DNA of 39,724 nt, from positions 1 to 39,724 of the IMG/VR virus record IMGVR_UViG_3300006802_000027, one strand, 5' to 3'. The stretch is from a virus. Of this stretch, positions 3,218 through 28,908 are shown piece after piece. Within the stretch, counting starts at the first letter, position 1. Every line of letters begins with the position of its first letter. Below the pieces are notes generated by a model that searched no databases, was not told where the DNA came from, and worked only from the letters and a program-made list of their open reading frames with translations. The position numbers and the translations under genes were made by a program.

Positions 3218-3772
3218 CTATTTTAAGGGGGCAGCTTTAATCAATCCTTGTTGTCTATAAAAATTATATGTTGAATCAAATGTTGTATCTTTAATCGTTC
3301 CCACTGATGTAAATGTGTTTTTATTTCCAAAACCCTTATACATTGCATAATTAGAAGCACCAGATAAAATTGTAGAAAAAGCATTAGTATATCCAGTTGC
3401 AACTGCTGTTGATCCTTCTCGACGAACTGCCGAAGCTTTATTTAAAGCTAAATTCTTCTCCTGTTGGTAATTAAACTGACCGATTGCTTGATCAATTCCA
3501 ATTTGAGTTTGAGCGTTAAGCATAACTGCCATAGCACTTCCACCTAACCCAATTCCAGAAGCACCAATCGCTGCAACAGATTTAGCTAGTGTATGTCCTT
3601 TAACTCTATTATACTGTCCATATTCAATTTCAGATTGAGCCTGAATTGTATTGGCTTGATTCTCATAAATAGTCGCATTATAATTAGCTTCTGCCTTTTT
3701 AGCATATCCCTGGCTAATCTGAGAGATTGCTTGCACCGCACTCATTGCTAACATTACTCCACCAAAACTCAT
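3218..3772 (-). CDS. Internal virion protein B, T7 gp14-like
   Basis: A 184-residue protein starting MSFGGVMLAMSAVQAISQIS. It has an amphipathic/hydrophobic N-terminus, then a helical region rich in Ala, Gln and Asn containing ANYNATIYENQANTIQAQ, then a Gly/Ala-rich hydrophobic centre (AAIGASGIGLGGSAMAVM). This layout (N-terminal hydrophobic helix, YENQA-type repeat, Gly-rich middle, helical end) is typical of gp14-like internal virion protein B, which inserts in the outer membrane during ejection. Its start overlaps the stop of the upstream HNH gene as TAATG. It ends with TAG, which doubles as the start of the next ribosome binding site. Confidence 0.75.
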   Translation of the reverse strand: MSFGGVMLAMSAVQAISQISQGYAKKAEANYNATIYENQANTIQAQSEIEYGQYNRVKGHTLAKSVAAIGASGIGLGGSAMAVMLNAQTQIGIDQAIGQFNYQQEKNLALNKASAVRREGSTAVATGYTNAFSTILSGASNYAMYKGFGNKNTFTSVGTIKDTTFDSTYNFYRQQGLIKAAPLK

Positions 3773-4344
3773 TATGCACCTCTTTTAAGTTTTTTATTTT
3801 TATGGTATCTAAATAATTGTGATTTATTAACACAAGTTCTACATTGTCTTTTACCTTGTGACATTTTCAGATTATTCCCACTTAACAAATGACCCCTTAT
3901 ACAATGTGTTTTTCTTGCATTTATTGAAGGGGCTGCGTCGCTTCTTCTTACGTTCTCTACGCCAGTAACCGCTTCCAGATGTTCTGGGTTTATACAAATT
4001 TTATTTTTGCACAAATGATCTATTGTTAGCCCTTCTGGTATCTTAGATTTGAATAACTCATAAGATACTCTATGAGCATAATTACCTTGTATTCTTGAAT
4101 AACCCTTTACATTAACAGAATGTGGGTAATTCCAACAACCATTGTCATCAACCTTTATTCTTTCTGTAATATACTTTTTTTTATCTCTAATAATTTGGTT
4201 CTTTCTTGCAACACCAAAGCGTTTTATTATTATTGATATAGGAGAAGTAGAAACACCCAATTCTTTAGCTATTTCTCTATATGTTTTCTTTTCTTCAAGA
4301 TACATATTCCTAACATCTTCAACATTTATTATTATTCTTTTCAT
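3772..4344 (-). CDS. HNH homing endonuclease with N-terminal HTH
   Basis: A 190-residue protein. Residues about 20-45 form a helix-turn-helix (YREIAKELGVSTSPISIIIK), and residues about 100-125 carry the HNH core, with IDHLCKNKICINPEHLEAV giving the DH, N and H positions. The C-terminus has a CIRGH...CRTC zinc-knuckle pair. Such free-standing HNH proteins are usually homing endonucleases of phages. It sits between the tail protein gene and the gp14-like gene, interrupting what is normally a continuous structural block, which suggests insertion by homing. Start ATG is 17 bases after the tail gene stop, and the end overlaps the next start as TAATG. Confidence 0.88.
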   Translation of the reverse strand: MKRIIINVEDVRNMYLEEKKTYREIAKELGVSTSPISIIIKRFGVARKNQIIRDKKKYITERIKVDDNGCWNYPHSVNVKGYSRIQGNYAHRVSYELFKSKIPEGLTIDHLCKNKICINPEHLEAVTGVENVRRSDAAPSINARKTHCIRGHLLSGNNLKMSQGKRQCRTCVNKSQLFRYHKNKKLKRGA

Positions 4345-4361
4345 ATATTATCAATGTACCA

Positions 4362-6377
4362 TCAGTCGTCACTTGTGTCAAGGGTAGTGACAATTGACAA
4401 TAATTCTATTGGTAAAGGATCGGAATTTTCGATATAAACTTGCGCTCCGTATTCGTAATCTCCATTAAAAGATAAGTTTGGAATCGTGCCTGTGTATAAA
4501 TCTTCTGGTTCTCCCATTAACGTACTTGCACTTCTAAACTGTACTCGATCTAAATTATCAGCGTCTTTTCCGTAGTAAAATCCTGTATGAGAGTTATTAA
4601 CTTTAAACGCTACTTTATTAATCCTTTGAATCTTCCCTTGCGATGTCCCTCTTTGACTTCCAGCTTCTTGAGGTAATGTCTTAATAGTTTGAGTATAAGG
4701 CAATCCAGCGGTTACAACAAAATAGTCATATTCTAAACTGATTGTTCCATTAGAAACCGTCTTGTTTGGTTTGTCTGTTCCACCATCAGCCAGAACAACA
4801 ACTTCTTTTGTTTCTAAATGGTCAAGTCCTGATATTGAGGAAACTGATAATCCCCAATCACCCCCAATGTAAGATGTGGCATCGAAATTATATTTAACTT
4901 CTCCAACAACTACCGTAGAAGATGTAAAGGCTGTGATTTTTAGTTCTCCAACCGTTACTCCGTCATCATCAATTGCTCTGATTCTTTGTCCAATATCACT
5001 TGACGCAAACCAAGCCGCAGACGAGGTGACAACAACGGTAGTTCCTGCTGTTGCGGATAAACTAATTGATGTTGCCGTTGAAGCGGCTGTTTGATCATAA
5101 GCACTATAAGTTAACCCTGAATGAACATAAAAACATTGGTCTTTTCTATCGGGGACGATTTGACTCTTGAATCTTTCGATATATCGTCTTTCAGAAGTAC
5201 CTGAGTTAATCGTTCTTTTAGTAACAACCCAAACTTCATCATTAGGCTCAGTTGCTGACGGAATCGTTGCAATTGATTCGTAATTCCCATCTGTTGTCTG
5301 TCTTGACCAACCTGTTAATTCTTGATCGACTTCTCTTGTCATTGTAGAAATCGTTCCTTGTGAAGTAACACACCAAAGAATCGTGTCGGGGTTTTGTTGA
5401 TAAGCCATATCAATAAACCCGTCCCCTGCGATATGAGGTGATAGAATCGTCCGGTCAGATGACTTATAAGAGTTTAATGTATCAAAATTAAAATAAAGCT
5501 CTCTTAGTTTTCTAGCAAAGCGTTGGATATAGTAAAGGAAATTTCCAATCTTTTTAGGGACAACCGCCTCTGATCCCCAACTTGTGTCTTTGGTTACATT
5601 ACAATTCGCCGGAGTTAAAGGCGAACCATCTCCTGATTTAACTGAAAATTCTCCACCGTAAGTACCGGCGATTAAGTCAAGACCAGGGGCAAGCCACTTA
5701 ATATCATTAGATTCGTTAGATGCAAGTTGAATATCGATTGCATCATCATCTTCTCCACCGTCTAAAGCAAAGTTTTCAAATTGGAAGGATTTACTCATCC
5801 ATACGTTTTGAGGTTGATAAGTTGTTCGAGCAAATACAAGTCTTTGTTGATGAAAGGTTACCCGGGCAGGCCAACCAAGAACATCTGACCAAGAACCTTG
5901 CGCCCATTGAGTTGTTGCTGAGGCTGTGGACAAAGTCTTCATAACTGTGGCTGTAGCTGTTGAAGGATTAGTTATTGCAGTGATCTTAACATACCCTTGT
6001 TCAGCTAAACCAGTTGTTGAATTAGTAACTGTCGATCCAATTTTCCAATATGTGTTTAAATGTCCTAAAGTACTACCAGAAGCAGTAAATATGTTTGAAC
6101 TAGCAGATAGGGTTACACTACCAACAGTTGCACTTGCTGTGATTGTCGCACTCGTTAAGAGAAGAACTGTTGACCCAGATAATATCGCATTATCTGAGAA
6201 GAACGGCCCACCAATAAAAGGCAAGTCAGTCAACGTCCAATTATTAGCTGCAATTCTAGTTAATTTTCTAGGAACATGATTTTCATGAGCAAGATAAATA
6301 ACGTCATTTATCTGAGCATATTGAATATCAAATATCTCTGTTGCTGTATAATCATGTGTTAATTCATAAACTGCCAT
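4362..6377 (-). CDS. Tail tubular protein B-like, C-terminal part of a split gene
   Basis: A 671-residue protein beginning MAVYELTHDYTATEIFDIQY and continuing with INDVIYLAHENHVPRKLTRI. In my knowledge of this large podovirus tail protein family, that region normally follows, in one chain, a roughly 100-residue N-terminal segment ending in a YIRFYxDG-type motif. Here that N-terminal segment is encoded separately, twice, in the genes just upstream. The reading frame upstream of the ATG is open back to a single TAG that ends the 352-residue neighbour, so the two are in the same frame with only the stop and three codons between. Around residues 195-330 the usual WLAPG...L..GT.GGEF core is present, and the C-terminus is beta-rich. 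The likely role is the tail tube/nozzle. Confidence 0.75.
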   Translation of the reverse strand: MAVYELTHDYTATEIFDIQYAQINDVIYLAHENHVPRKLTRIAANNWTLTDLPFIGGPFFSDNAILSGSTVLLLTSATITASATVGSVTLSASSNIFTASGSTLGHLNTYWKIGSTVTNSTTGLAEQGYVKITAITNPSTATATVMKTLSTASATTQWAQGSWSDVLGWPARVTFHQQRLVFARTTYQPQNVWMSKSFQFENFALDGGEDDDAIDIQLASNESNDIKWLAPGLDLIAGTYGGEFSVKSGDGSPLTPANCNVTKDTSWGSEAVVPKKIGNFLYYIQRFARKLRELYFNFDTLNSYKSSDRTILSPHIAGDGFIDMAYQQNPDTILWCVTSQGTISTMTREVDQELTGWSRQTTDGNYESIATIPSATEPNDEVWVVTKRTINSGTSERRYIERFKSQIVPDRKDQCFYVHSGLTYSAYDQTAASTATSISLSATAGTTVVVTSSAAWFASSDIGQRIRAIDDDGVTVGELKITAFTSSTVVVGEVKYNFDATSYIGGDWGLSVSSISGLDHLETKEVVVLADGGTDKPNKTVSNGTISLEYDYFVVTAGLPYTQTIKTLPQEAGSQRGTSQGKIQRINKVAFKVNNSHTGFYYGKDADNLDRVQFRSASTLMGEPEDLYTGTIPNLSFNGDYEYGAQVYIENSDPLPIELLSIVTTLDTSDD

Positions 6378-6386
6378 GTTTCTCTC

Positions 6387-7445
6387 CTAAGTTGTTACTA
6401 CTGCGCCATCTGTATAAAATCTAAAATAACTTTCCCCTGCCTCGATGATATAAGAGTCGTCTCTATTAAAAACAAAGGGTATTAATCGTGCTCTCCCGTA
6501 AACTCTTTCTGCAATGCCTTCACTCGAACTTGTGTCGCTGTATTCAGTGTCTGGTACTGTAAAATTAGAAGTCCAACGTACTACATTTGACCATCTTACC
6601 TCGTCAAGCCATCCATCAAACTCATCAGCTTCTGTATCATTGTTACCTTCACCTATTTGAAACAAAGAATTTAAAGAACCAGGAGATACATTCAAACCTA
6701 TTTCTCCAGTTACATCAAGAACACCATCTCGATATAAATTTATAGTAGAAGATGATTTTATATATGCAATATGATACCATTGGTTTAAATTTAAATTAAT
6801 ATTAGAAGAAGTAAATGTATAGCTAGTACCAGCAGCCGAAGCAGTTCTCCATTCAAAACGATGTTCTGTTGCAGATAGCTTTTGATAATAAAAATAACTT
6901 ACATCATTTAATACTCCACTTGATACACTTCCTTTTTGTCTAAAGATATAAAAAATACTATTACTACCATTGCCTGTTGGGAAAGAATTGAATCTAATCC
7001 TAAAGTCAAATGTAAAAGAGCCTGCATAGGTTAAATCATAAATATTAGAATTACTTGGAGTAATTTGTAGATAGTTAGCACTCTTAACACTTGCTGACGG
7101 AGTAAATCTAGCTGATTGGTCGAAAACTGCTTGCCCTGTATCAATCGCCACAAGCCCAAGAACTGATGCGGTATTGTTTCCCGTACTATCTACTGTAAAT
7201 CCCGGGGTTGTATCAAAATGCAACAAAAGGATTGTATTGTCATCCAATCCACCAGCTACCGTGTCATACTTCGCATCATTTATAAATTCCGAACCAGGGG
7301 TACTAATTACCGAACCATAAGGGCTGACAATCATATTCTCAACAATAGAACAAGCGTTGTCGTACTGAGCAATGTCTGATCGTCCGTATAGTGAAGGTGC
7401 GAACTCTCCACCTGCAAATGATGTTTTTATTGTGTCTAGCTTCAT
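6387..7445 (-). CDS. Tail protein N-terminal domain with inserted LamG domain
   Basis: A 352-residue protein made of three parts. Residues 1-60 (MKLDTIKTSFAGGEFAPSLY...ISTPGSEFIN) and the last 40 (RARLIPFVFNRDDSYIIEAG...FRFYTDGAVVTT) match the start and end of the adjacent 100-residue protein almost residue for residue. Between them, residues about 65-310 form a LamG/concanavalin A-like sandwich, with LLLHFD at its start, NQWYHIAYI in the middle and GWLDEVRWS...RWTSNFTVP at its end. That domain resembles the stand-alone LamG protein encoded 1.3 kb upstream. It starts with ATGA overlap to the 100-residue gene and ends with TAG in frame with the 671-residue gene. A carbohydrate-binding role is plausible but inferred from the fold. 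Confidence 0.8.
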   Translation of the reverse strand: MKLDTIKTSFAGGEFAPSLYGRSDIAQYDNACSIVENMIVSPYGSVISTPGSEFINDAKYDTVAGGLDDNTILLLHFDTTPGFTVDSTGNNTASVLGLVAIDTGQAVFDQSARFTPSASVKSANYLQITPSNSNIYDLTYAGSFTFDFRIRFNSFPTGNGSNSIFYIFRQKGSVSSGVLNDVSYFYYQKLSATEHRFEWRTASAAGTSYTFTSSNINLNLNQWYHIAYIKSSSTINLYRDGVLDVTGEIGLNVSPGSLNSLFQIGEGNNDTEADEFDGWLDEVRWSNVVRWTSNFTVPDTEYSDTSSSEGIAERVYGRARLIPFVFNRDDSYIIEAGESYFRFYTDGAVVTT

Positions 7446-7744
7446 GTTGTAACTACTGCTCCGTCGGTATAGAATCTGAAATAATTATATCCAGCTTCAA
7501 TTATGTATGAATCATCTTTTGAAAAAACGAAAGGCATTAATCTCGCAAGGCCTGTTGACCCACCAGTTTTACACGCATTAATAAACTCTGTACCCGGCGT
7601 GCTTATCGCAGACCCATATGGACGGATAAGAAAATTCTCAAGCGTTTCACATGCATTTTCATATTGTGCGATATCAGTCCGTCCAAATAAGCGAGGTGAG
7701 AATTCTCCACCAACAAAACTTGTTTTTATTGTATCAAGCTTCAT
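7442..7744 (-). CDS. Tail protein N-terminal domain, free-standing copy
   Basis: A 100-residue protein, MKLDTIKTSFVGGEFSPRLF..., containing GGEFSPRLFGRTDIAQYENAC, then STPGTEFIN, then RLMPFVFSKDDSYIIEAG and FRFYTDGAVVTT. This is the characteristic N-terminal segment of the large podovirus tail tubular B-like protein, which normally continues for another 600-700 residues. Here it stops with TGA that overlaps the ATG of a second, LamG-interrupted copy. It is therefore a free N-terminal domain, either a functional subunit in a split tail protein or the residue of a tandem duplication. It is the most compact copy and has no insertion. Confidence 0.8.
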   Translation of the reverse strand: MKLDTIKTSFVGGEFSPRLFGRTDIAQYENACETLENFLIRPYGSAISTPGTEFINACKTGGSTGLARLMPFVFSKDDSYIIEAGYNYFRFYTDGAVVTT

Positions 7745-8370: not shown

Positions 8371-9081
8371 CTATTGCCCCATTCCCATTAACATTCTACT
8401 TGAATTTGTTGCTGTTGAATCTACTGAATATGCGCTTGTCGGAGGAGTAAAATTTGTTGTCCAACGTGCAATTCCTTTAGAAATTCTAAATTCATCTATC
8501 CATCCATTTATCCCTTGTGGCCCTGTTTGAGAACCTATAGCTATTCCTGTAGCAAAATTAGTAATTGCTTCACTATTAGTTATATCTGTTCCTAATTGTG
8601 TCCCATCTACAAATATTCTAAATGTATTACCACCACTTCTTACATAGGCAATGTGATACCATGTGTTTGTTGATGGACTCCACGATCTTGTATCAAATAT
8701 CTTATCCACTCCACCCACAGTTTCAAATCCACCCAATGCCCCAGCAGATTGATATTTAAAAATAAAATAATTATTCCCATCTACTTTCTGAGAATAGAAT
8801 GTAATATCTGATGCAACACTATTAAATCTAACCCAAAAATCTATAGTAAAATCTAAAACATCAAAAAACCAGTCATTACTATCTGGAAAAGTTAAATAAT
8901 CAGAATCTCCATCTCCTAATAAAGAAGCTCCACCAAAAACACTTTGTGCAGTATCAACCTGAACTGTTCCAAACGTAGTAGCTGTCCCTTGCGAAGCAAG
9001 TGAACTATCTGTAAATGTTGTAGAACCGTCTGCACCATCCATGTGTAACAACAATTTTGTATAAGAATCGTTCCCGGCCAT
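8371..9081 (-). CDS. LamG/concanavalin A-like domain protein
   Basis: A 236-residue protein that is essentially one LamG-type jelly-roll domain. It opens with YTKLLLHMDGADGSTTFTDS, contains FTIDFWVRFNS near residues 75-90, NTWYHIAYVRSGGNTFRIFV in the middle, and ends with GWIDEFRISKGIARWTTNF. These are the usual marks of phage LamG (Laminin_G_3) proteins, which are often receptor- or glycan-binding decorations. The same domain, clearly paralogous, is inserted in a tail protein 1.3 kb downstream. It starts with ATG next to the preceding stop, in the tail gene block. No signal peptide is present, as expected for a virion protein. Confidence 0.85.
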   Translation of the reverse strand: MAGNDSYTKLLLHMDGADGSTTFTDSSLASQGTATTFGTVQVDTAQSVFGGASLLGDGDSDYLTFPDSNDWFFDVLDFTIDFWVRFNSVASDITFYSQKVDGNNYFIFKYQSAGALGGFETVGGVDKIFDTRSWSPSTNTWYHIAYVRSGGNTFRIFVDGTQLGTDITNSEAITNFATGIAIGSQTGPQGINGWIDEFRISKGIARWTTNFTPPTSAYSVDSTATNSSRMLMGMGQ

Positions 9082-13662: not shown

Positions 13663-13946
13663 TAAACCCTACTTATCGAAGCTACATCTGTTCCACTATA
13701 AGTTAAAACCAATGTTGCAACTAATGTTCCACTTGAACCGCCAGTCCTATATTCTATTGTAGTTGGTTGACTAGCTGGAGATAAAGAAATATAATCATAA
13801 TTCTTAGGAACAAGTCCACTTGCAACTAATAAATTACCGTCAGAACTAACAATTAATGGATAAGCAATCTCTGAATCAGCATTTTGTTTTGCATGCAATA
13901 CCGTTGGATGAGCATCACTTGCTCCAAAAACTTTTTTAGTCGTCAT
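13662..13946 (-). CDS. Small tail-block hypothetical protein
   Basis: A 94-residue protein starting MTTKKVFGASDAHPTVLHAK and ending in a beta-rich stretch (TIEYRTGGSSGTLVATLVLT). It overlaps the preceding adaptor gene as ATGA. Both this and the next small gene begin MTTK and encode short beta proteins just before the repeat-rich fibre gene, so they may be fibre-associated. No known family recognised. Confidence 0.55.
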   Translation of the reverse strand: MTTKKVFGASDAHPTVLHAKQNADSEIAYPLIVSSDGNLLVASGLVPKNYDYISLSPASQPTTIEYRTGGSSGTLVATLVLTYSGTDVASISRV

Positions 13947-14533
13947 GAATTAGGTTGCCAATCTTGATATTTAGCTAATTCCCAAGCATCATCTTTTAAT
14001 GTTTGCTGTATCCCACTTTGGGAATTAGAAGAAATTGCTTTTGGTAAAGAAACTTTTTCATAAACTTCTCGATAACGCTCAGCTAATGTTTGTGAGTTAA
14101 CAATTCTATAAGCTACTTCACAACATAATTTATCAATAAAAGCATCAACAAAAAATGATGGATATTTATTTGGATCATCTAAATAATAAACATATCGAAT
14201 GCCTAAATCGCTTGAGTCAGAAATAATATAATCTCCTTCTTCACGCCAAGCAGCGTCTTTAGGAGACACATCAAAAATCTTTATAATATCAGTTGGTTTA
14301 ATATAAACAATTCCTTCTCCTATATCATACCAGTCAAGATCGTCGGCGCTTACAGACAATAAAGATCGTCTCGTTGCAAAATTCCACTTACATTCAGAAA
14401 GAATTGACCTCAATACCCCTTCATAAACCTTTTTACAAATTCTTGCATTATTAGAATCGTCATCAATACTTGTAATTGTATTTGCACCTACAAGGATTAG
14501 AGATTTATTTAATATATCTGTCTTTGAAAGCAT
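13943..14533 (-). CDS. Tail tubular protein A-like (T7 gp11-like) adaptor
   Basis: A 196-residue protein. It starts MLSKTDILNKSLILVGANTI and contains ARICKKVYEGVLRSILSECK then WNFATRR. This pattern (N/K-x-AL-x-L-G at the start, W-x-F/W-A-x-xR after a Y-x-x-xR-x-x-L segment) is typical of the gp11/TTPA family that joins the portal to the tail tube. Helices near the C-terminus (FIDKLCCEVAYRIVNS) also fit. It is the first gene after the capsid block and is separated from it by a hairpin terminator. Length is normal for the family. Confidence 0.82.
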   Translation of the reverse strand: MLSKTDILNKSLILVGANTITSIDDDSNNARICKKVYEGVLRSILSECKWNFATRRSLLSVSADDLDWYDIGEGIVYIKPTDIIKIFDVSPKDAAWREEGDYIISDSSDLGIRYVYYLDDPNKYPSFFVDAFIDKLCCEVAYRIVNSQTLAERYREVYEKVSLPKAISSNSQSGIQQTLKDDAWELAKYQDWQPNS

Positions 14534-15082: not shown

Positions 15083-15934
15083 TTAACCTTCATTTAAGAT
15101 GACAACTCGATCTTCTTCCAATCGAACTGCACCGATATTTAATTCATAATATAATTGCCAGCTATAGCTTAAATCAGCTCGTTCATCAGTACGAACTAGA
15201 GGAGCAGAAGCCATACCTAAACAAATACCATTTTTCTGATAAGCAACACCAATTAACGTTGATGCAGATACAGCGGCTAATTGAGTTGACATAATCCAAT
15301 TAAAGCCCATCCAAGTATTAATCTCACCACGAACAAGAGCTTTAACAGAATTAAAGTCACTTGATGTAGCGGCAGTCGTATTAAGTAAGTTATCCAAAGC
15401 TGCTGGAGTGATTACAAAATAACGATCTTCCATTTCAACATCTTGAGCATCAAATTGTGCTTTTACAGCAACAATACGAGCCAAAGTCATTGAAGCAGCG
15501 GTTGCAAGAATGATATTTCCGTTTGTGATTGATGTCGTTCCAGTTTCACCAGAAGCAGCCGTACCTAATGCAGCTCGGATGATTACGTTATCAATCTGAC
15601 GACCTAATGATTGTGCAGCAGCGATTGTATAAGCACTGCGAGGATCAGAGATTGTTTTTAATTCATCTCCACGATCTAACATACGGTTGTCATGATAATC
15701 AACCATTACGCCCATACGACGTGCAAGGTTAGGATCATTATTAGGTGTTTGAGTATTTCTGCTTCCTTTTACTTCCATTGACCAAGTATCAATTTGATCT
15801 TGGAAGAAAGTTTTTCCTCGGACGTTTGGTCTCATATAGACCGTATTCACAAGCTTAGAATATTTTTGCTGTGCTAACTGCATAATATTCTGTCCGTACG
15901 CTTGTGCGTAAACTACGTTTTGCGTATCTGCCAT
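15083..15934 (-). CDS. Major capsid protein
   Basis: A 283-residue protein with the layout of the HK97-fold phage coat family that Pfam groups as Phage_capsid_2. It has an N-terminal extended segment (MADTQNVVYAQAYGQNIMQL), then a region with RRMGVMVDYHDNRMLDRGDE, a central AAAQSLGRQIDNVIIRAALG helix, RYFVITPAALDNLL, and a C-terminal QLYYELNIGAVRLEEDRVVI. Position downstream of portal and scaffold, with its own long leader, fits. The ATG is preceded by AGGGG at about ten bases. Confidence is high for role and lower for exact family. Confidence 0.88.
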   Translation of the reverse strand: MADTQNVVYAQAYGQNIMQLAQQKYSKLVNTVYMRPNVRGKTFFQDQIDTWSMEVKGSRNTQTPNNDPNLARRMGVMVDYHDNRMLDRGDELKTISDPRSAYTIAAAQSLGRQIDNVIIRAALGTAASGETGTTSITNGNIILATAASMTLARIVAVKAQFDAQDVEMEDRYFVITPAALDNLLNTTAATSSDFNSVKALVRGEINTWMGFNWIMSTQLAAVSASTLIGVAYQKNGICLGMASAPLVRTDERADLSYSWQLYYELNIGAVRLEEDRVVILNEG

Positions 15935-17443: not shown

Positions 17444-17793
17444 TAAATATCTCTTACCATTCTAAAATATTTTAATCCATTACGATCTTGAGCGTTGCAA
17501 CATCCACCTACAAATGAAACGCAAAATGCTTCTTCTGGTTTTCCAACCCTTTGCTTGTTAGTCCAATACCATTCGTTTAATTTGGTATCTCCAAAAAAAT
17601 CAATATCAACGGCCGGATTTGACCTATCATAATCTACGATTGATTGTAATTCTTTAACGCTTGGGAGCCTACAATTACGATCTTTCACATAAACAACTGC
17701 ATCATCCCATGAAAGCATTACATCAACTGTTGAACTCCACTCAATATTATTAAGATTATCCTTGACCCAATTAATATTTAAAAATCTACTCAT
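17443..17793 (-). CDS. DUF1566 (Lcl C-terminal)-like protein
   Basis: A 116-residue protein with VMLSWDDAVVYVKDRNC, RLPSVKELQSIVDYDRSNPA, YWTNKQRVGKPEEAFCVSF and GLKYFRMVRD. This W..A..Y...C-RLP-x-x-x-EL-x-S-I-x-DY...YWT...A..V.F...R.VR layout is typical of DUF1566/Lcl domains, which share a C-type lectin-like fold and are common in displayed or adhesive bacterial proteins. Here it is a bare domain with no signal peptide, coupled by ATGA to the portal gene. A virion-attached binding protein is possible but unproven. Confidence 0.7.
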   Translation of the reverse strand: MSRFLNINWVKDNLNNIEWSSTVDVMLSWDDAVVYVKDRNCRLPSVKELQSIVDYDRSNPAVDIDFFGDTKLNEWYWTNKQRVGKPEEAFCVSFVGGCCNAQDRNGLKYFRMVRDI

Positions 17794-19463
17794 TTACTAC
17801 TTCCCTGTTTAGTCTTAGCAATATTTGCATCAACTTCGCTTCCAGTCTTAACAACATCCGCTCCTTGTTGAGCCATTTGCAAAGCTACTTGTTGTTGAGC
17901 CATTTTACCCTTAGCATCTCTCAACGCTTCAATTTCACTATCGTCTCGTAGAACCCTCGCAGGTGCCCCTAGAATGCCCCAGGTTTCATCAACGACTTTA
18001 TCAGCAGATACTTTATCAAGAACATCAGGCATAAGCGGAGCCATTTGTCCAACAAGCGTTAATCCTGTCATTAATGCATTAAGTTCAGACCTTCGCTGAG
18101 CTTGAGCTAATTGACTAATGCAGTCAATCTCATACTCAGGATTGTCGATAAGTTCGTCCGGAGGTGGGGGCAGCTTCCCGCGTCTAGCAAGGATTCCAAT
18201 TGTTCTTATGACAACTGGATTGAGCATTTCTGAGATGTATCGGCCAACAGCCGGCCCTAACATGGTCATCTTCTCATTGATTCGTTCCATCACCTCTGGA
18301 TTGTTCATTTGTTTAGTAATACCATCAAAAGCTAAAAATACGTCGTTATACATTAACGCTTTTACTTTTTGACTATAATATTCAATTGCTGTCATTCCTG
18401 TATTTGGATCACCGAAGTTGCTAAATGCAAATATATCATTACCTGAAGTCATTTTTTCTTTGTTATAATAATTAATCGCTCTTGGATTAGCATTAAAAGG
18501 CATGATAAATGCATTATCAGGAACAGCAATAGGTGGATCAGTATGCTTCATCATTGACCTTAAATTTGTCTTAGCAATTGCATTAAGTATTCTTGAAAAT
18601 GGTAATGCTTTCATTGCTGGCGAATAACCCCAAGGAATAAATGGTCTTTTATCAAATCTGTGACAAAACGCCGGAAACTCATGATATCCGCCCTCATCAA
18701 TAATTACTTTATTCTCGCAATCAATCCAACAAGCCTCAACTGGTAGATTCTTTTTATCTGTCTTTCGTTCATCACGATTGTATCTATTAGCAATTGAAAG
18801 TAAAAATAAGTGGGCTTTTTCCTGTCTATTGTCAGGATTTAATTCTTCTTTCATTTTATCTGAAAGTTTTTCTTTTCCCCACTTATTAGCAGCTTGAGAA
18901 GCTGTATATTCAAACTCAATAAAATATTCAACTACTCGTCCTCTACCATCTTCAACCAAACATATATTTTTAATAGGCAATGAATAAAATCTTGCATCAT
19001 CTTCGATATCTTCTTCTTCCATCAAAGCCGATGTTCCATAAACTCCACTTGCTTTATATGATGAGATTATCTGATTATAAAAATTAGATTTGTTAAGTGT
19101 ATAATTTACTTGATCTGTTACATCAGATAAATATCGACCAACAACTTTATTGTCTCTTAAAGCAGCAGATTTAGCTCTTAATCCAAACCATTTACTTGTT
19201 GGAGGAGTTAAATAATTCATAAAACCAGCAGCTAATACATCGGCAGATTCAAGTGTGGTTGAGTCATATAAATAATCACTTTTTAATTCTGACCCAGCAG
19301 CTTGAACAGAATTAATATCTTGTGCTTCAATATAAAAATAATCATGTAAAGATTGCCAATAGCTTTCAAAATTACTTCTTTGTCCTTTAAGTCTATAATA
19401 AAAATCTAGCTTTTGAACAGCCTTTGGACTATTTGTTTCTTGTTTTGGTTGCGTTGCTAACAT
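17790..19463 (-). CDS. Portal (head-tail connector) protein
   Basis: A 557-residue protein, close to the length of T7 gp8. It has the N-terminal YYRLKGQRSNFESYWQSLHD region, then YDSTTLESADVLAAGFMNYL followed by TPPTSKWFGL, and later GWGYSPAMKALPFSRILNAI-type sequence with RINEKMTMLGPAVGRYISEM. These are the usual features of the T7-type head-to-tail connecting protein family. It begins eight bases after the preceding gene and overlaps the DUF1566-like gene. It forms the dodecameric DNA entry/exit ring and docks the terminase. The C-terminal 50 residues are Gln/Ala-rich and flexible. Confidence 0.92.
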   Translation of the reverse strand: MLATQPKQETNSPKAVQKLDFYYRLKGQRSNFESYWQSLHDYFYIEAQDINSVQAAGSELKSDYLYDSTTLESADVLAAGFMNYLTPPTSKWFGLRAKSAALRDNKVVGRYLSDVTDQVNYTLNKSNFYNQIISSYKASGVYGTSALMEEEDIEDDARFYSLPIKNICLVEDGRGRVVEYFIEFEYTASQAANKWGKEKLSDKMKEELNPDNRQEKAHLFLLSIANRYNRDERKTDKKNLPVEACWIDCENKVIIDEGGYHEFPAFCHRFDKRPFIPWGYSPAMKALPFSRILNAIAKTNLRSMMKHTDPPIAVPDNAFIMPFNANPRAINYYNKEKMTSGNDIFAFSNFGDPNTGMTAIEYYSQKVKALMYNDVFLAFDGITKQMNNPEVMERINEKMTMLGPAVGRYISEMLNPVVIRTIGILARRGKLPPPPDELIDNPEYEIDCISQLAQAQRRSELNALMTGLTLVGQMAPLMPDVLDKVSADKVVDETWGILGAPARVLRDDSEIEALRDAKGKMAQQQVALQMAQQGADVVKTGSEVDANIAKTKQGSSK

Positions 19464-22088: not shown

Positions 22089-22271
22089 TTAGAATTGTAT
22101 TAATGCAGTAGGTCTTTTTTGATCAGTCTTTCGAGGTCTTTGACGCATGAGAATTATGTGGTGTTTAAACTGACATTCTGGAGATCCGCAGGTTTTTCTT
22201 ACTAATGGTTTTATTTTACAATATGGGCAAGCTTTTTGATATCTTGTTACAGTTATCTCAACTCTAACCAT
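22089..22271 (-). CDS. Small Cys-rich, zinc-finger-like protein
   Basis: A 60-residue basic protein with ACPYCKIKPLVRKTCGSPEC (two CxxC/CxxxxC pairs at residues 15-34) followed by QFKHHIILMRQRPRKTD. The four cysteines suggest a zinc-binding fold, and the basic tail suggests nucleic acid binding. It overlaps the end of the DPM1-like gene by 19 bases and precedes the terminase genes. It could be a late transcription or packaging accessory; no family is recognised. Confidence 0.6.
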   Translation of the reverse strand: MVRVEITVTRYQKACPYCKIKPLVRKTCGSPECQFKHHIILMRQRPRKTDQKRPTALIQF

Positions 22272-22831
22272 AAATTAAAAGACTCCTTTAAACATTTTAA
22301 AATGCTTGATATTTTCATTGGTTTAGATGACGATCCAAAATCATTAACCTCAACAGGCACCTCAATTATCTGCAATCCTTTATTTCTAGCCTTAGCTAAT
22401 ATCTCTAAATCAAAAATAAAAGAATTTGTCTTCCAATCTAACAAAGCATATCTATGAAACAATTTTATTCCTGTTTGAGTATCATAATTTAAACCAAAAA
22501 ACAAATGAAGATAAAATCTTGTTAACTTAGTTAATATTCTTCTACCAATTGAACGTCTTATTTGTTTTTTCCCAATAACAATATCATAATCACTTAAAAA
22601 AGGTATTAGTCTATGAATCATCGAAGGATGTATGTCTAGGTCTCCATCAATAAAGCAAATATAATCTCCCGTAGCTTGTTCTAAAGCCTTACGGACTGCC
22701 CATCCCTTACCCATACCATATCGGTCATTACAAATAACAATTTGAGCATTTGGAAAACATCTTTCTACTGCTTCAATCATTTTTAATATCTTTGGCTCAT
22801 CTTTTGAAGGAATAAGAACAGATAAATTCAT
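22253..22831 (-). CDS. DPM1-like polyprenyl-phosphate glycosyltransferase (GT2)
   Basis: A 192-residue GT-A enzyme. It has MNLSVLIPSKDEPKILKMIE, then GKGWAVRKALEQATGDYICF, the FIDGDLDIHP DxD box (Asp62, Asp64), DTQTGIKLF (residues 117-125) and SFIFDLEILAKARNKGLQII followed by EVPVEV. This motif series is characteristic of the DPM1/GtrB branch that transfers a sugar from a nucleotide sugar to polyprenyl phosphate on the cytoplasmic face. No membrane helices follow the catalytic domain, as in DPM1 rather than GtrB. The start at 22831 has GGAGG at five bases and shares ATGA with the upstream stop. It probably supplies the lipid-linked donor for the TMTC-like membrane enzyme two genes away. Confidence 0.85.
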   Translation of the reverse strand: MNLSVLIPSKDEPKILKMIEAVERCFPNAQIVICNDRYGMGKGWAVRKALEQATGDYICFIDGDLDIHPSMIHRLIPFLSDYDIVIGKKQIRRSIGRRILTKLTRFYLHLFFGLNYDTQTGIKLFHRYALLDWKTNSFIFDLEILAKARNKGLQIIEVPVEVNDFGSSSKPMKISSILKCLKESFNLWLELR

Positions 22832-23064
22832 TTTGCCTCCGTTATTAAACCACATTTCCAATTATCTTTTGGTATTTTAGAATAAACAACCCATTGTTTT
22901 CGATCATTATCAATTAAAACTTCATAACCATAAAGACTAGCAAATTGAAATGCTTTTTCTTTATCTGCAAAAACATATTCTTTTATTTCTTCTCGCACAA
23001 TTTCAGAATGTTTTAACTTTAAATTATATTGTTCAAAATCACAATTATAATATTGAATTATCAT
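22828..23064 (-). CDS. Small hypothetical protein between donor synthase and membrane transferase
   Basis: A 78-residue soluble-looking protein, MIIQYYNCDFEQYNLKLKHS..., with an amphipathic middle (EKAFQFASLYGYEVLI) and QWVVYSKIPKDNW near the end. It has no membrane helix, so it is not a GtrA-type flippase. ATGA overlaps on both sides tie it to the DPM1-like and TMTC-like genes. It could be a partner of either, but no family is recognised. Confidence 0.6.
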   Translation of the reverse strand: MIIQYYNCDFEQYNLKLKHSEIVREEIKEYVFADKEKAFQFASLYGYEVLIDNDRKQWVVYSKIPKDNWKCGLITEAK

Positions 23065-24383
23065 AACAACAAAGGCAATTCTCCTTTATGCCATTTATCC
23101 ATAAGACTATTTGCCATTTTTTCTTGACCTTTTGGTATATTCTCACTAGCCATTTTCATAAATTCATCTGCTTCTTTTTCATATTTTGCTAATTTTAATG
23201 CTGTTGCTAAATTAAAAAGTATTTTGAACTCTTTAGGGCTAATTATTCTTGCCATTGTCCAAAGAGTAACAGCCTCTGGATAGGATTTATTATCCCATCG
23301 CTTCATTGCTCTAACATGCCAAACAAACCAAGCATCTGGACTATGCATACACGAATTTTCAACTAAATAATAATCATCCATATAAGAATCCATCCAAAAC
23401 CACAATTTAGTCGCATACATTGCAATCCATGCGGAATAAATAACTGGATATTGAATTAAAAACGAAGCTAAAACAAACATTAGTCCACAATTAGGTAAAT
23501 AAACATATCTTTCGGCTATTTCTTGACTCATTCTAAATAAATTGCAAAAAGGAGCAATGCAAATACACCACCACAATATCCCAAAATTTATCATATCCCA
23601 CTTACAAAATATAAATCTATATAAAATAAAACCAACAATAATTAAACCAATCCAAAAAAACCTATCTTTTAAACTATATGCTTTTTCTTTACCACTTCCA
23701 GCCAAACTTTGCATATAAGAATGATAGAATGTTGTCTTTATTGGTATTAGTGAGTGAATAAAATAAAAACTAAAAGTTTTAACTCCTAATATTAATTTTG
23801 ATATGTGTATTCTTTTATCATCGTCATACATTTCCTGATTAATTTTATCAACAACATTCTTTTTAAACATTTTTAAATAAAACAACCAAATAAATGGCAT
23901 AAATCCTAAAAGCCAATAGTTTTTTGAACCAATTAATGCAAGTGGAGCTAAAAATCCAGCGTTAGAATATGCTGCTAATAACAAAAAAAATGCTCCTATA
24001 TAAGGAAATGCTATTGCCCCTGTCATGCCAAGAGCTGATAAAGCATAACCTCTTCCAGAAATCCAAACACTTGCTTGATTATTTATAGGATTAAAAGCAA
24101 ATAAAAAAGAAGCCAAAAAGGAAATATCATTCGCTCCAAATCCCAAATAAATAAAAACACATACCAATGAATGAATAATTGTTGTTAACAAATGATCTTC
24201 TTGCGGTGTTGTCCTAATACAACCTTCTAGTTGTAATAATCTAACCCTCCACCATTCTTTCGGTTTGGGACGTTGCGAAACAGGGATATCATCCGATACA
24301 TATTTATAAGTAATTGTTTTTGCAAAAAATAATAAATTTACTAATAGAATTATGCAGATTTTCTCAAACACAGTTTTCTCCAT
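23061..24383 (-). CDS. TMTC-like GT-C membrane glycosyltransferase with TPR end
   Basis: A 440-residue polytopic membrane protein with roughly ten hydrophobic segments up to residue 330. An early DD pair (Asp31-Asp32) lies in the first loop, where GT-C enzymes keep catalytic acids. FNPINNQASVWISGRGYALS (97-116) matches the HP-x-H-x-E-A-V-x-W-I-x-G-R box of TMTC O-mannosyltransferases, and AERYVYLPNCG (290-300) matches their ERFLYLPS-type motif. The C-terminal 80 residues are TPR-like (SPKEFKILFNLATALKLAKY). TMTC proteins use polyprenyl-phosphate sugars, made here by the DPM1-like neighbour. They are usually much longer, with many more TPRs. The acceptor cannot be told from the sequence. It overlaps the radical SAM gene by 34 bases. 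Confidence 0.75.
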   Translation of the reverse strand: MEKTVFEKICIILLVNLLFFAKTITYKYVSDDIPVSQRPKPKEWWRVRLLQLEGCIRTTPQEDHLLTTIIHSLVCVFIYLGFGANDISFLASFLFAFNPINNQASVWISGRGYALSALGMTGAIAFPYIGAFFLLLAAYSNAGFLAPLALIGSKNYWLLGFMPFIWLFYLKMFKKNVVDKINQEMYDDDKRIHISKLILGVKTFSFYFIHSLIPIKTTFYHSYMQSLAGSGKEKAYSLKDRFFWIGLIIVGFILYRFIFCKWDMINFGILWWCICIAPFCNLFRMSQEIAERYVYLPNCGLMFVLASFLIQYPVIYSAWIAMYATKLWFWMDSYMDDYYLVENSCMHSPDAWFVWHVRAMKRWDNKSYPEAVTLWTMARIISPKEFKILFNLATALKLAKYEKEADEFMKMASENIPKGQEKMANSLMDKWHKGELPLLL

Positions 24384-25390
24384 TTCTCTTCCGCGACCAA
24401 ACGCGCACCTCTTAATAAATAAGTAAAATCTTCCTTACACTTAATATCTTTAATCTTGTGATACCAAAACTCTGGAGATTTGTAGGCATCAAAAATCATT
24501 GGTATATATTTATGTCCTTTAGAATTTGGATCGGGTCTGGTTCTAGGAGGACTATAAACAGAAGCTTGCGCTGTTTTGGCATATCCTTTTTTGAGTAACC
24601 TATGAACCATTCTAACCGTATTCATTGCATCTTCATGAGACTCCCATTCATATCCAAACATCGTAGTCAGGTGAGATTCAAGTCCCGCATCTGCCATTTG
24701 TTTAATAAATTCTTCTTGCTTATTTGCTTTCTGTCCCTTTTGAATACGATCTAAAGTTTCTTGATTTGCACTTTCTAGTCCCACAAGAATAAAACGAAAT
24801 CCAGCCGCTTTCATCATTCTATAATCAATATTTACTGGCTTCATATTACAACCAATTTTTATTTTCTTATACCTATCTTTTTCTCTCATTTTTTTGCAAA
24901 AATTATAAAGCCATTCACCCACAGGAAAAGTACCAGAATCATCAAAAACTTCTTTATAGCCGTTAGCAATTAAATCATCTATTTCTTCAATAACGTGTTC
25001 GACGCTTCTTGTTTGTTGTGGTTCACCATCATTTAATTTTTTTGTATCAATACAAAAGGTGCATTTTCCATACCAGCAAAGATTGCTTGCCATCATGTGC
25101 GTTGCTGGATGGAATTTATAGTTTCCGTATGATTGCCATCTAGAATTTTTAGCGTCGGTAAATTTTCGATCTGGATAAGGTAGGTTTATAAAAGGAACAT
25201 CTATTTTATTGTCACTGTCAATTAAAAAAATATTTTCGTAAATCCATTCGCCCTTATAATCCCAAACAACATCATGTCCTTTATCTCTTAAATAGGTCGC
25301 GTAAGCTGCTAAATGAGCTGGATATACCCAAACTGGCTTCTCGAATTGACGTTGTTGGTTGTAAGGATTTAGTGGGAATAAATAGCGCAT
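24350..25390 (-). CDS. Radical SAM protein, B12-binding-type subfamily
   Basis: A 346-residue protein. The cluster motif is CWYGKCTFC (Cys105, Cys110, Cys113), a CX4CX2C variant that occurs in B12-associated radical SAM subfamilies as CYWxxCTFC, rather than the canonical CX3CX2C. The N-terminal 50 residues (YPAHLAAYATYLRDKGHDVV) look like the start of a truncated cobalamin-binding-type domain. The core then follows with VFDDSGTFPVG, GCNMKP and FILVGLESANQETLDRI. The reaction is unknown: lipid or sugar modification are possibilities from the context. The ATG has GGAG at six bases. It overlaps the TMTC-like gene, so the two are coexpressed. Confidence 0.85.
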   Translation of the reverse strand: MRYLFPLNPYNQQRQFEKPVWVYPAHLAAYATYLRDKGHDVVWDYKGEWIYENIFLIDSDNKIDVPFINLPYPDRKFTDAKNSRWQSYGNYKFHPATHMMASNLCWYGKCTFCIDTKKLNDGEPQQTRSVEHVIEEIDDLIANGYKEVFDDSGTFPVGEWLYNFCKKMREKDRYKKIKIGCNMKPVNIDYRMMKAAGFRFILVGLESANQETLDRIQKGQKANKQEEFIKQMADAGLESHLTTMFGYEWESHEDAMNTVRMVHRLLKKGYAKTAQASVYSPPRTRPDPNSKGHKYIPMIFDAYKSPEFWYHKIKDIKCKEDFTYLLRGARLVAEEKWRKLCLRKSA

Positions 25391-25458
25391 ATTACTCCAA
25401 TTAAAAAAAACATAAATAACAAAAATTTACCTTCAATCGTAAGGGGTAGATATCTCAT
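25369..25458 (-). CDS. Possible 29-residue membrane peptide
   Basis: A short frame translating as MRYLPLTIEGKFLLFMFFLI followed by GVICAIYSH, one hydrophobic helix. Its ATG shares ATGA with the end of the HNH remnant, and its stop lies inside the radical SAM gene. It repeats the first four residues (MRYL) of the radical SAM protein. It could be real or a by-product of the remnant. Confidence 0.35.
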   Translation of the reverse strand: MRYLPLTIEGKFLLFMFFLIGVICAIYSH

Positions 25459-25677
25459 CGCGTCCACCATTCAAAATCACATTTAGGACAAAGCCTTGGT
25501 TCATAATGAGCATTATGCCGAACTAATCTTAAATTTTCCGGACGGTTATCGTCTTTAATCCCATTAATATGGTTTACATCCGTTATTTTCACTATACTTC
25601 TTCAACAAATCGGCTTTCTTATCAGGAGACATATTCTTCCACCATAATTTCTTTGACTCGCTTTGCGCTATACTCAT
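25455..25677 (-). pseudogene. HNH endonuclease remnant, frameshifted
   Basis: Two short frames together look like a broken HNH nuclease. The first (25564-25677, starting MSIAQSESKKLWWKNMSPDK and reading to KKYSENN) begins with an ATGA overlap at the dehydratase stop. The second, offset frame (25455-25592, possible GTG start) reads VKITDVNHINGIKDDNRPEN, then LRLVRHNAHYEPRLCPKCDF. That is an HNH core (H-I-N-G...N-R-P-E-N-L) followed by a CxxC. A single frameshift would join them. The remainder of the gap before the radical SAM gene encodes only a short membrane peptide. Confidence 0.65.
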
Positions 25678-26684
25678 GCTACCCATCTTTCGTTTTCTAA
25701 AGTCCAATTAATAGTTTTTCTTAAAGATTCTTCTAAGTTACATGGAAAATCATAACCAAAATCTTTCAATCTTTTACCATCCAAGCCATAAAATAAATCG
25801 TGTCCCGGCCTAGAAGAATGTGCATCGACCATCCTATATTTCAACTCTTTATTCATTATCTTTGAAATCATTTGTGCAATATCTAAATTTGATATTTGTC
25901 TCTCACCGACGATGTTAAATCTATGAGGCCTATCAAATTCTGGGTACTTTTGCAAATTAATATTCTTTAACATATATAAAATCGCATCAGAAGTATTTCT
26001 TGCGTGTAACCAAAAACGAGCACCAGATTTTTTACCTTCTGGATCAGAATGGATAATAACCTCTTCACCGTTTTTTATTTTTCTTATAACCATTGGGATG
26101 AACTTCTCTTTATCTTGCATTTCACCAAATGTATTCATAATGTTTGTAAGAAAAAGAGGTGTCCCGTAAGTTCTCCAATAACTAACTGATATCGCCTCTT
26201 GAGCAGCCTTACTGGCAGAATAAGGATTTGATGGAATAATCGCGCTCCACTCTGGGTGGTTTGTTATCACATCAGTCGCCCCATAAACCTCGTCGGTACT
26301 TATTTGGATTAACTTCTCTGGCTGGATTTTCTTGCACAACTCAAGCATATTCAAAACTATGTTGACGTTGTTTTGTACAAAAGGCACTGGATCAGTAATT
26401 GAACGATCAACATGAGACTCAGAGGCAAAGTTAACCACGTAATCAATATGACCAATTTTATCAATTAAAATCTCTGATATGGGCGCGTTTAAGTCGTGGG
26501 TAAAAATCCTGACTCTTGAAAACTGTTTTTTATAATGTTCGTTATCCGTAAGCCTTTCTGAAATCCCTTTGTGTCTCCAACTGTCAATCCCAATCACTTC
26601 CCAATCTGTGTTGACTAGCACGTGGCTCAAGAAATGCGAGCCAATAAATCCGCCTATTCCTGTTATTAATATTTTCTTAGACAT
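25674..26684 (-). CDS. dTDP-glucose 4,6-dehydratase-like (extended SDR)
   Basis: A 336-residue extended short-chain dehydrogenase. It has the NAD-binding GIGGFIG (Gly9, Gly12, Gly15), NFASESHVDRSITDP (85-99), the catalytic STDEVYG (Thr130-Asp131-Glu132) and YSASK (Tyr155, Lys159). TNIMNTFGEMQDKEKFIPMV replaces the NNYGPYQFPEKLIPL usual in RfbB. All catalytic residues of the RfbB family are present, so the likely product is a 4-keto-6-deoxy nucleotide sugar, though other substrates in this family are possible. No following sugar-nucleotide enzyme such as RfbC or RfbD is present, so the product may be used by host enzymes. Confidence 0.88.
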   Translation of the reverse strand: MSKKILITGIGGFIGSHFLSHVLVNTDWEVIGIDSWRHKGISERLTDNEHYKKQFSRVRIFTHDLNAPISEILIDKIGHIDYVVNFASESHVDRSITDPVPFVQNNVNIVLNMLELCKKIQPEKLIQISTDEVYGATDVITNHPEWSAIIPSNPYSASKAAQEAISVSYWRTYGTPLFLTNIMNTFGEMQDKEKFIPMVIRKIKNGEEVIIHSDPEGKKSGARFWLHARNTSDAILYMLKNINLQKYPEFDRPHRFNIVGERQISNLDIAQMISKIMNKELKYRMVDAHSSRPGHDLFYGLDGKRLKDFGYDFPCNLEESLRKTINWTLENERWVA

Positions 26685-27573
26685 TATTTCCCCTTTCTAT
26701 TACTTTGAACCTTCCTCTTAAAATCCTTAGACGATAAAAATTTGATAGCTTCTTTAGAATCCACGAAGGCACGATAATAGAAATCAGCGAGTAAAACCAA
26801 AACGATGCATCTTTTAGACAATTCTTGTTTATTTTTACTGCTAGGCATATTTCCTCCCATAATTTATGCGGTGCTCTATTTTTTAACATTATAAAACTTG
26901 GATAATCTTTCCAATTATTATTTCCTGTAAGATCTACCCAATTTTGCCAACACGAACCTTGATAATAAGATTTTTTTGTTCCTGTGTTTCCTCCAGGATG
27001 ATAACGAAAAGCAACTGTATCATATTCAAACATTGTCCACCGCCATCTTCTAAGATATTGCTCAACAATATAAGGCATTTCTATAAATATTTTATTTGTT
27101 GCAAAAATATTATCATCTCTTCTAAACGCCATCCCAGAAGGGCAGCAACTTTGAGTTAAGATGTTTTTATCTCTTAAAACTCCAATAGCTCCTTTATATC
27201 CATGATAAAAATAATATCCAAATCTTCCAATAACACCAATATCTTGATTCCCTTTATCAAATTGATTAACAATATCTGTTAAAACTTTAGGATGAGTAAA
27301 AATATCGTCAGCGCATAAATAAACAACATATTTTCCTTGAGCCTCTTCCATTAATTTAACTAAATTTTCTCCAATCCCTATATTAACATTATTTATAATT
27401 AACCTTACTTCTGGGAATGTTCTTGCAACTAAAACAGTAGAATCGTTTGAAGCATCGTCACAAACTAAAATTTCTTTAAGAGGATATTCTTGTATTAAAC
27501 AGCTTTTTATTGCGTCTGCTATGACGTTTTCGTTGTTGTGGCTGGGAATGCAAATTGTGATCTTGGGTTTCAT
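26677..27573 (-). CDS. Family 2 glycosyltransferase
   Basis: A 298-residue GT-A enzyme beginning MKPKITICIPSHNNENVIAD, with ILVCDDASNDST (35-46) and a YLCADD metal-binding box (Ala88-Asp89-Asp90). Later SGMAFRRDD and FEYDTVAFRYHP are seen, then a hydrophobic C-terminal segment (FWFYSLISIIVPSWILKK) that probably attaches it to the inner membrane. I chose the ATG at 27573, which shares ATGA with the upstream stop. The neighbouring gene has the same layout and several of the same motifs, so the two are tandem paralogues. Substrate is unknown. Confidence 0.88.
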   Translation of the reverse strand: MKPKITICIPSHNNENVIADAIKSCLIQEYPLKEILVCDDASNDSTVLVARTFPEVRLIINNVNIGIGENLVKLMEEAQGKYVVYLCADDIFTHPKVLTDIVNQFDKGNQDIGVIGRFGYYFYHGYKGAIGVLRDKNILTQSCCPSGMAFRRDDNIFATNKIFIEMPYIVEQYLRRWRWTMFEYDTVAFRYHPGGNTGTKKSYYQGSCWQNWVDLTGNNNWKDYPSFIMLKNRAPHKLWEEICLAVKINKNCLKDASFWFYSLISIIVPSWILKKLSNFYRLRILRGRFKVIERGNNV

Positions 27574-28475
27574 GGTCTTTTGACCTCTTTTGTCGTCCAT
27601 CTTCCTATTGTAATTCTATATAAATGTGGAAGTTTACGTAAAATACAACGAGGAGTAAAAATTGCAACAAAAGCGAAAAACCAAAACCCCGGAATAATAA
27701 TATTAATTGGTCGGTATTTAACGAAGTTGTAACATTCTTTAATAACAGCAGACAATTTAAAATTATTTTTAATTTGGATAAGAGAAGTGTAGTCTTGCAA
27801 AAGAGAATATCCTCCTACCTTCTTCCAATTTTCTATTGGAGAACTGACCCATCTTTTTAAATAATATGATTTATTTTGACTGATAGAATTATGAACCCTT
27901 ACTCCAATCGTATCGTATTCCAATATTTTATAGCCCCATCCATTTTTTAAAACACAAGAAACTAAAGCAGATACTTCTGTAAACATCTTGTTTTCTAGCT
28001 TACAATGCCCAATTGCTTCTCGTCTAAAAGCCATCCCAGAAGGGTTGTTAGCAAGCTCTAAAATATTTTTGCCTCGCCATGCTCTACAAGGACGTTTATC
28101 GTTTCCAACGAACTGATGATAAAATCTAGAGACATGGCCAACGGTCTTATCTTCTTCAAAAATTTTAACAACATCTGATATAACACGAGAGTCTAGAATT
28201 AAATCATCGCTACACAACAAATAAATAATTTCTCCTTTGCTATAACTAATTGCTTTATTGAAAGCGTGGCCTGTCCCAGAAGGCTCCTCCGATCTAAAAT
28301 ATTTAACTTTCGGAGTAGAAAAAATTGCAAGGTCTTTAGTGTTGTCTGTCGAGGCGTCATCTAAAACAATAACTTCAATGTTTTCATAATCCTGTTTTAA
28401 AGCACTAATTAAGGCATCTGTTAAAAGATGTCCCTGGTTATGACTTGCGACGCATATACTTACCAAGTTTTGCAT
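27570..28475 (-). CDS. Family 2 glycosyltransferase, paralogue
   Basis: A 301-residue GT-A enzyme starting MQNLVSICVASHNQGHLLTD, with VIVLDDASTDNT (36-47), YLLCSDD (metal box about 85-91), NPSGMAFRREA, ILEYDTIGVRVH, and a C-terminal hydrophobic segment (IIIPGFWFFAFVAIFTPRCI). It shares SGMAFRR, EYDT and the C-terminal layout with the next gene, indicating duplication. The ATG at 28475 has AGGAAA upstream; a longer form would overlap the HNH gene further. The first 38 bases lie inside the HNH endonuclease gene, which suggests the HNH was inserted at the boundary. Confidence 0.88.
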   Translation of the reverse strand: MQNLVSICVASHNQGHLLTDALISALKQDYENIEVIVLDDASTDNTKDLAIFSTPKVKYFRSEEPSGTGHAFNKAISYSKGEIIYLLCSDDLILDSRVISDVVKIFEEDKTVGHVSRFYHQFVGNDKRPCRAWRGKNILELANNPSGMAFRREAIGHCKLENKMFTEVSALVSCVLKNGWGYKILEYDTIGVRVHNSISQNKSYYLKRWVSSPIENWKKVGGYSLLQDYTSLIQIKNNFKLSAVIKECYNFVKYRPINIIIPGFWFFAFVAIFTPRCILRKLPHLYRITIGRWTTKEVKRP

Positions 28476-28908
28476 GATGTTTCCTATGTTCTGATTCATT
28501 TTTACAAAGTATAAGATTTTCTATTCTGTTATCTGTCTTTATCCTGTTTATATGGTGAACAACCTCTCCCTTTCTTAACTTTCTTCCCAAATGTTTTTCC
28601 ATAACAAAACGATGCTCTCTTATCTTTTTATTTGGTGCATAATTTATAATTACATACCCGTGTGTCTTACATACCCACCTTCCACCTTTCCATGTTGGAC
28701 TTTTTTCTCCACTGGCTACAAAACTTTTCCCACGGAATGGTTTATTTTTCATAAAATTATGTTTACAAGACTTAGAACAGAATTTTTTTGTTTTCTGTTC
28801 GCAAGGATATATTTTGAATTTCTTAGTACAAAAAAGACAAGCTATCTCAATATTACTCTCTTGGACAAATACTCCATGACTATTTCTTTTTCTTTTAGCG
28901 TTTTGCAA
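28438..28908 (-). CDS. HNH endonuclease with zinc finger
   Basis: A 156-residue protein. An N-terminal zinc-finger-like part has CLFCTKKF...KKFCSKSCKHNF, followed by KSPTWKGGRWVCKTHGYVII and the HNH core EHRFVMEKHLGRKLRKGEVV then HHINRIKTDNRIENL. This is the standard layout of phage free-standing HNH homing endonucleases. It overlaps both glycosyltransferase neighbours by short distances. It is one of three intact HNH genes plus a remnant in this genome. Confidence 0.9.
   Translation of the reverse strand: MQNAKRKRNSHGVFVQESNIEIACLFCTKKFKIYPCEQKTKKFCSKSCKHNFMKNKPFRGKSFVASGEKSPTWKGGRWVCKTHGYVIINYAPNKKIREHRFVMEKHLGRKLRKGEVVHHINRIKTDNRIENLILCKNESEHRKHHAKLGKYMRRKS

Follow-up and report, generated by a model that had tools for sequence, protein, structure and literature searches.

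In podophages the nozzle seals the DNA channel and is normally made of one chain. The window, by which we mean the whole stretch of DNA analysed (a virus record of 39,724 bases), raises the question of how such a structure is put together in a phage in which the nozzle sequence is spread over three genes and the N-terminal part is encoded twice. The features relevant to this question are the following.

4362-6377, minus strand: nozzle core, 671 aa, with its own start, matching PHROG 376 positions 104-711
6378-6391, minus strand: junction ACTTAGGAGAGAAAC, with the TAG stop of the 352-aa gene within the Shine-Dalgarno sequence of the core
6387-7445, minus strand: LamG-bearing N-terminal nozzle subunit, 352 aa, matching PHROG 376 and Laminin_G_3 (PF13385)
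6490-7265, minus strand: LamG insert of the 352-aa gene, residues 61-318, with approximate limits drawn from Pfam and from alignment with the bare copy and intact homologues
7442-7744, minus strand: bare N-terminal nozzle subunit, 100 aa, matching PHROG 376 positions 2-98
13943-14533, minus strand: adaptor of the tail tubular protein A type, PHROG 394
15083-15934, minus strand: major head protein
17790-19463, minus strand: head-tail connector

Identity of the three genes

The three genes share a single protein family, PHROG 376 (tail protein), and divide its profile between them. The 671-aa protein matches positions 104-711 of 712 (E 1e-138), the 100-aa protein positions 2-98 (E 4e-31) and the 352-aa protein, in two stretches, positions 2-62 (E 5e-26). 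This complementary coverage was counted in favour of a one-family, two-chain nozzle and, on the evidence of sequence, the 100-, 352- and 671-aa genes each encode part of a single protein, namely the podophage nozzle (tail tubular protein B). The expectation that a nozzle is a single polypeptide fails here, as there are two separate ORFs and the core initiates separately, from its own Shine-Dalgarno sequence. The initial annotation had described a free 100-residue N-terminus, a copy of it interrupted by a LamG domain and a separate 671-residue gene for the remainder, and the profile matches bear out all three; its placing of the protein in the tail tube needs amending to the hexameric nozzle, which is not a tail tube proper.

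The Laminin_G_3 match covers residues 124-289 of the 352-aa protein (55.2 bits against a Pfam gathering cut-off of 27.6), and the LamG domain splits the nozzle N-terminus after approximately residue 60. PHROG relatives of this domain are baseplate and virion structural proteins. The bare and the LamG-bearing N-termini of the window are 71% identical over the first 59 residues and 46% identical in the C-terminal segment.

The genes lie in a minus-strand podophage structural module. Repeat-rich, probably fibre-like genes and a LamG gene, all on the minus strand, are located between the adaptor and the split nozzle genes, which are followed by genes for an HNH endonuclease and an internal virion protein. 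The HNH endonuclease gene (3772-4344, minus strand) is directly downstream of the nozzle core; a diverged relative with a split nozzle, L007, has no HNH counterpart at that place and the next gene follows the core. The window has identical 123-base ends (1-123 and 39602-39724) and an independent twin contig, L004, runs across them, which probably reflects a complete genome of ∼39.6 kb that is circular or circularly permuted. Another minus-strand cluster (22253-30729) harbours GtrB-like glycosyltransferases and a nucleotide-sugar epimerase, a content that is unusual for a 39.7-kb podophage and that may alter host surface glycans.

Junctions in the window and in a diverged relative

Few bases separate the three genes. 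The TGA stop of the 100-aa gene overlaps the ATG of the 352-aa gene (ATGA), a stop-start that could arise directly if a tandem duplication were joined out of frame at the start codon. At the second junction the TAG stop of the 352-aa gene sits in TAGGAGAGAAACATG, where the stop forms part of the Shine-Dalgarno sequence of the core. The stop-to-ATG distance is 9 nt; the core continues the reading frame of the 352-aa gene and begins three codons past the TAG. Both short copies end right after DGAVVTT, exactly as they had been read at the outset. Intact homologues read through the junction as ...VVTTGTTPFELAH..., which implies that the break replaces a short linker only. Promoter and terminator scans returned nothing above shuffled sequences.

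L007 shows the same break, ahead of a 669-aa core that is 80% identical to that of the window. Two LamG-bearing copies, the first and the third, flank a bare one of 102 aa, and the core comes last. Here the stop-to-ATG distance is 8 nt, which puts the core in a different frame from the stop before it; a Shine-Dalgarno sequence is found at the stop in both split genomes. The expression of the third N-terminal copy of L007 is uncertain, as its start is displaced by an inserted opposite-strand ORF. This ORF (L007 2140-2676, minus strand; 178 aa) parts the copy from the expected start codon; the product is Cys/His-rich and HNH-like by eye, and gave no Pfam or PHROG match.

Intact relatives and the position of the break

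Eight scans of viral contigs, each yielding the best 80 loci at most and the last with a profile limited to the split clade, recovered at least 166 distinct nozzles in which a single ORF spans N-terminus and core, in agreement with the earlier claim that intact homologues continue without a break. A clean split was seen, among the matches listed, only in the window, its twin and L007, which amount to two distinct genomes. L074 and L223 look split, but their reading frames are disrupted and a clean second start is lacking, so they were left out of the count; L127, with a frame break inside a junction LamG, is not a clean split either. A DNA pattern for the C-terminus of the split clade and its stop matched only the twin of the window and L007, and a genome-contig scan with the N-terminal alignment yielded one relative, which is intact. 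The rarity of the split nozzle is a statement on these samples only.

The intact nozzles shed light on where the chain has been broken. An insert of at least 40 residues is present at the position of the window's break in 45 of the 166 intact nozzles among the matches listed, indicating that the break sits in the main loop for N-terminal insertions in the family, one which is already used to add domains. A large insert in the loop at approximately residue 60, where the window carries its LamG domain, is found in none of these 166. The insert at the break position contains LamG in L040, L043, L119, L123 and L126. In three of these, L040 (2390-5971), L119 (4932-8543) and L123 (5001-7612), LamG domains are nested at the junction loop and the nozzles reach ∼1,190–1,200 aa, that of L123 running off its contig. 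The window also harbours a free-standing LamG gene (8371-9081, minus strand; 236 aa), the product of which is 44–46% identical to the inner LamG of these nested inserts and 31% identical to that in the 352-aa gene; in these phages one adhesin family is thus found free, inserted and nested. Two nozzle-like proteins of uncultured phages in BFVD, A0A6J5QP07 and A0A6J5NFE1, are named for VWFA and GLEYA adhesin domains and match the nozzle fold, which suggests that other adhesin domains may also be inserted in nozzles.

Evolution of the split and selection on its pieces

The cores of the window and L007 are sisters in the tree (100/100) and are nested within a clade of intact nozzles (99/98), which marks the split as derived. 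The N-terminal copies are too short for their tree to order the duplications. These pieces are paralogues of the normal N-terminus, and the prospect entertained in the initial annotation, that related phages might carry the three genes as full, diverged proteins with no N-terminal relationship, does not apply.

The N-terminal paralogues share 60–77% identity in the scaffold, in which pN/pS is 0.20–0.37 and synonymous differences are near saturation, much like in the core (pN 0.14, pS 0.79). Judged by these substitution patterns, all N-terminal pieces are under purifying selection. The LamG inserts are 22–33% identical, with pN of 0.50–0.59. The low pN/pS of the scaffold alongside the divergence of the inserts points to conservation of the docking part and to divergence or replacement of what is inserted into it. 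The scores of the five N-terminal copies in a comparison with a profile built from intact N-termini are 120–134 bits (intact range 54–167, median 151), which corresponds to the 5th–18th percentile of intact N-termini and makes some specialization possible. All copies keep the family-invariant columns of the alignment, along with nearly all of the conserved residues of the family, and, with scores within the intact range, look able to dock, their sequence being somewhat relaxed.

Predicted structure

The AF2 model of an intact relative, L114 (pLDDT 90, pTM 0.87), displays the propeller-plus-platform fold and matches the solved nozzle of Cobetia phage Carin1 (PDB 8ck1) with a TM of 0.88; T7 gp12 was also matched. 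The least confident segment of this model, residues 61–63, is the loop that corresponds to the LamG site, and the position of the break falls between strands 88–93 and 106–108. For the 352-aa protein AF2 produced an unusable model (pLDDT 42). The T7 study describes gp12 as a hexameric nozzle in which a velcro strand closes the seven-bladed propeller and the first 45 residues supply three platform strands (PMC6702177). By analogy, the split core alone should be incomplete, and the free N-terminal piece would have to add strands to both platform and propeller.

A proposed mosaic nozzle and its alternatives

The reading to which we lean, with confidence a little above even, is a nozzle of two chains whose six docking sites are contested by bare and LamG-bearing N-terminal subunits, resulting in a variable adhesin load. 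The 671-aa core would account for the bulk of the beta-propeller and for the remainder of the nozzle, whereas an N-terminal subunit of ∼100 residues, encoded in tandem more than once, would dock non-covalently and complete the beta-sheets of the core. One N-terminal copy is bare and the other has the LamG lectin-like domain in a flexible loop. As the hexamer should offer six equivalent N-terminal sites, competition between the two subunits would produce a mosaic nozzle assembled from pieces, in which the relative amounts of the two N-terminal proteins would set the stoichiometry and the number of LamG adhesins displayed. The exposed LamG domains would presumably have host surface glycans as their ligand. 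The notion of alternative N-terminal subunits had been put forward in the initial annotation. Its evolutionary half is well supported by the derived split, the paralogous pieces, the purifying selection and the three copies of L007; its functional half, for which the conserved residues and profile scores of the copies speak, is the best account available. A more tentative suggestion is that a mosaic nozzle lets the number and kind of adhesins vary from particle to particle, with new adhesins added by tandem duplication while the core gene is left untouched. If it works, such an arrangement would show how a module that contacts the host can evolve within a hexameric ring that is essential, with no danger to the ring itself, and would be a naturally occurring system in which to ask how many adhesins a particle requires.

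A stop that is read through, spliced out or due to a sequencing error would restore a normal single chain, an explanation that could draw on the in-frame position of the window core, three codons after the TAG, and on the HNH genes nearby. The phase of the core is not preserved, however: with 9 nt in the window and 8 nt in L007, programmed readthrough was rejected, being excluded outright in L007, and the Shine-Dalgarno sequence at the stop in both genomes also argues against it. An intron or intein at the break was discarded likewise, as no Rfam intron reached the gathering score in the window or L007, a group II match inside LamG was weak and at chance level, and the genes lie only a few bases apart. 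Sequencing error, which the initial annotation had named as a possible source of the stops, and chance are ruled out by L004, which differs from the window by one mismatch in 14.4 kb (99.993% identity), and by the same break in the diverged L007. Recoding or artefact is therefore very improbable.

It is also doubtful, albeit to a lesser degree, that fixation of a tandem duplication and of a break, the latter in a tolerant loop, brought no new function and left the extra copy redundant. The break does fall in an insert-tolerant loop and out-of-frame tandem duplication alone would make the ATGA stop-start, but purifying selection acts on all copies over near-saturated synonymous distances and both split genomes, diverged as they are, retain multiple copies. 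A division of labour deserves more weight, although we regard it as unlikely: only one N-terminal protein would fill the nozzle site and the other would serve separately as an adhesin, chaperone or fibre adapter, or else each would hold a fixed position of its own. Such roles would fit the extent to which the scaffolds of the paralogues have diverged, the bare copy of L007 being the most divergent. Yet both kinds of copy keep the columns conserved in all intact nozzles and score alike, and the extra LamG copy of L007 is what would be expected if the copies were exchangeable, as they would be in a mosaic nozzle.

Comparison with known nozzles

Nozzle and LamG are known kinds; neither the other relatives nor the literature searched, in which subscription journals were largely missing, yielded a two-chain nozzle with tandem paralogous N-termini, and the papers in that literature describe neither a split nozzle nor a nozzle with LamG. 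Once the pieces are joined, the window protein belongs over its whole length to the same family as T7 gp12, epsilon15 gp12 and the Carin1 nozzle (PHROG 376). The known nozzles are single chains, that of epsilon15 being encoded by one 825-aa gene, whereas the window chain is broken at approximately residue 100 and its N-terminal piece is present twice, and three times in L007. Nozzles with domains in the junction loop, such as the five with LamG mentioned above and those of Pelagibacter phages with an insert of ∼75 aa, use the same loop for addition. In these the insert is covalent and present in all six subunits; in the window, by contrast, this loop is the site of the chain break and LamG occupies the loop at approximately residue 60. 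The LamG domain resembles the LamG/concanavalin A-like adhesion domains of phage tail proteins (PF13385) in matching Pfam above the cut-off, and differs from them in that it sits on an N-terminal nozzle subunit that also exists without LamG.
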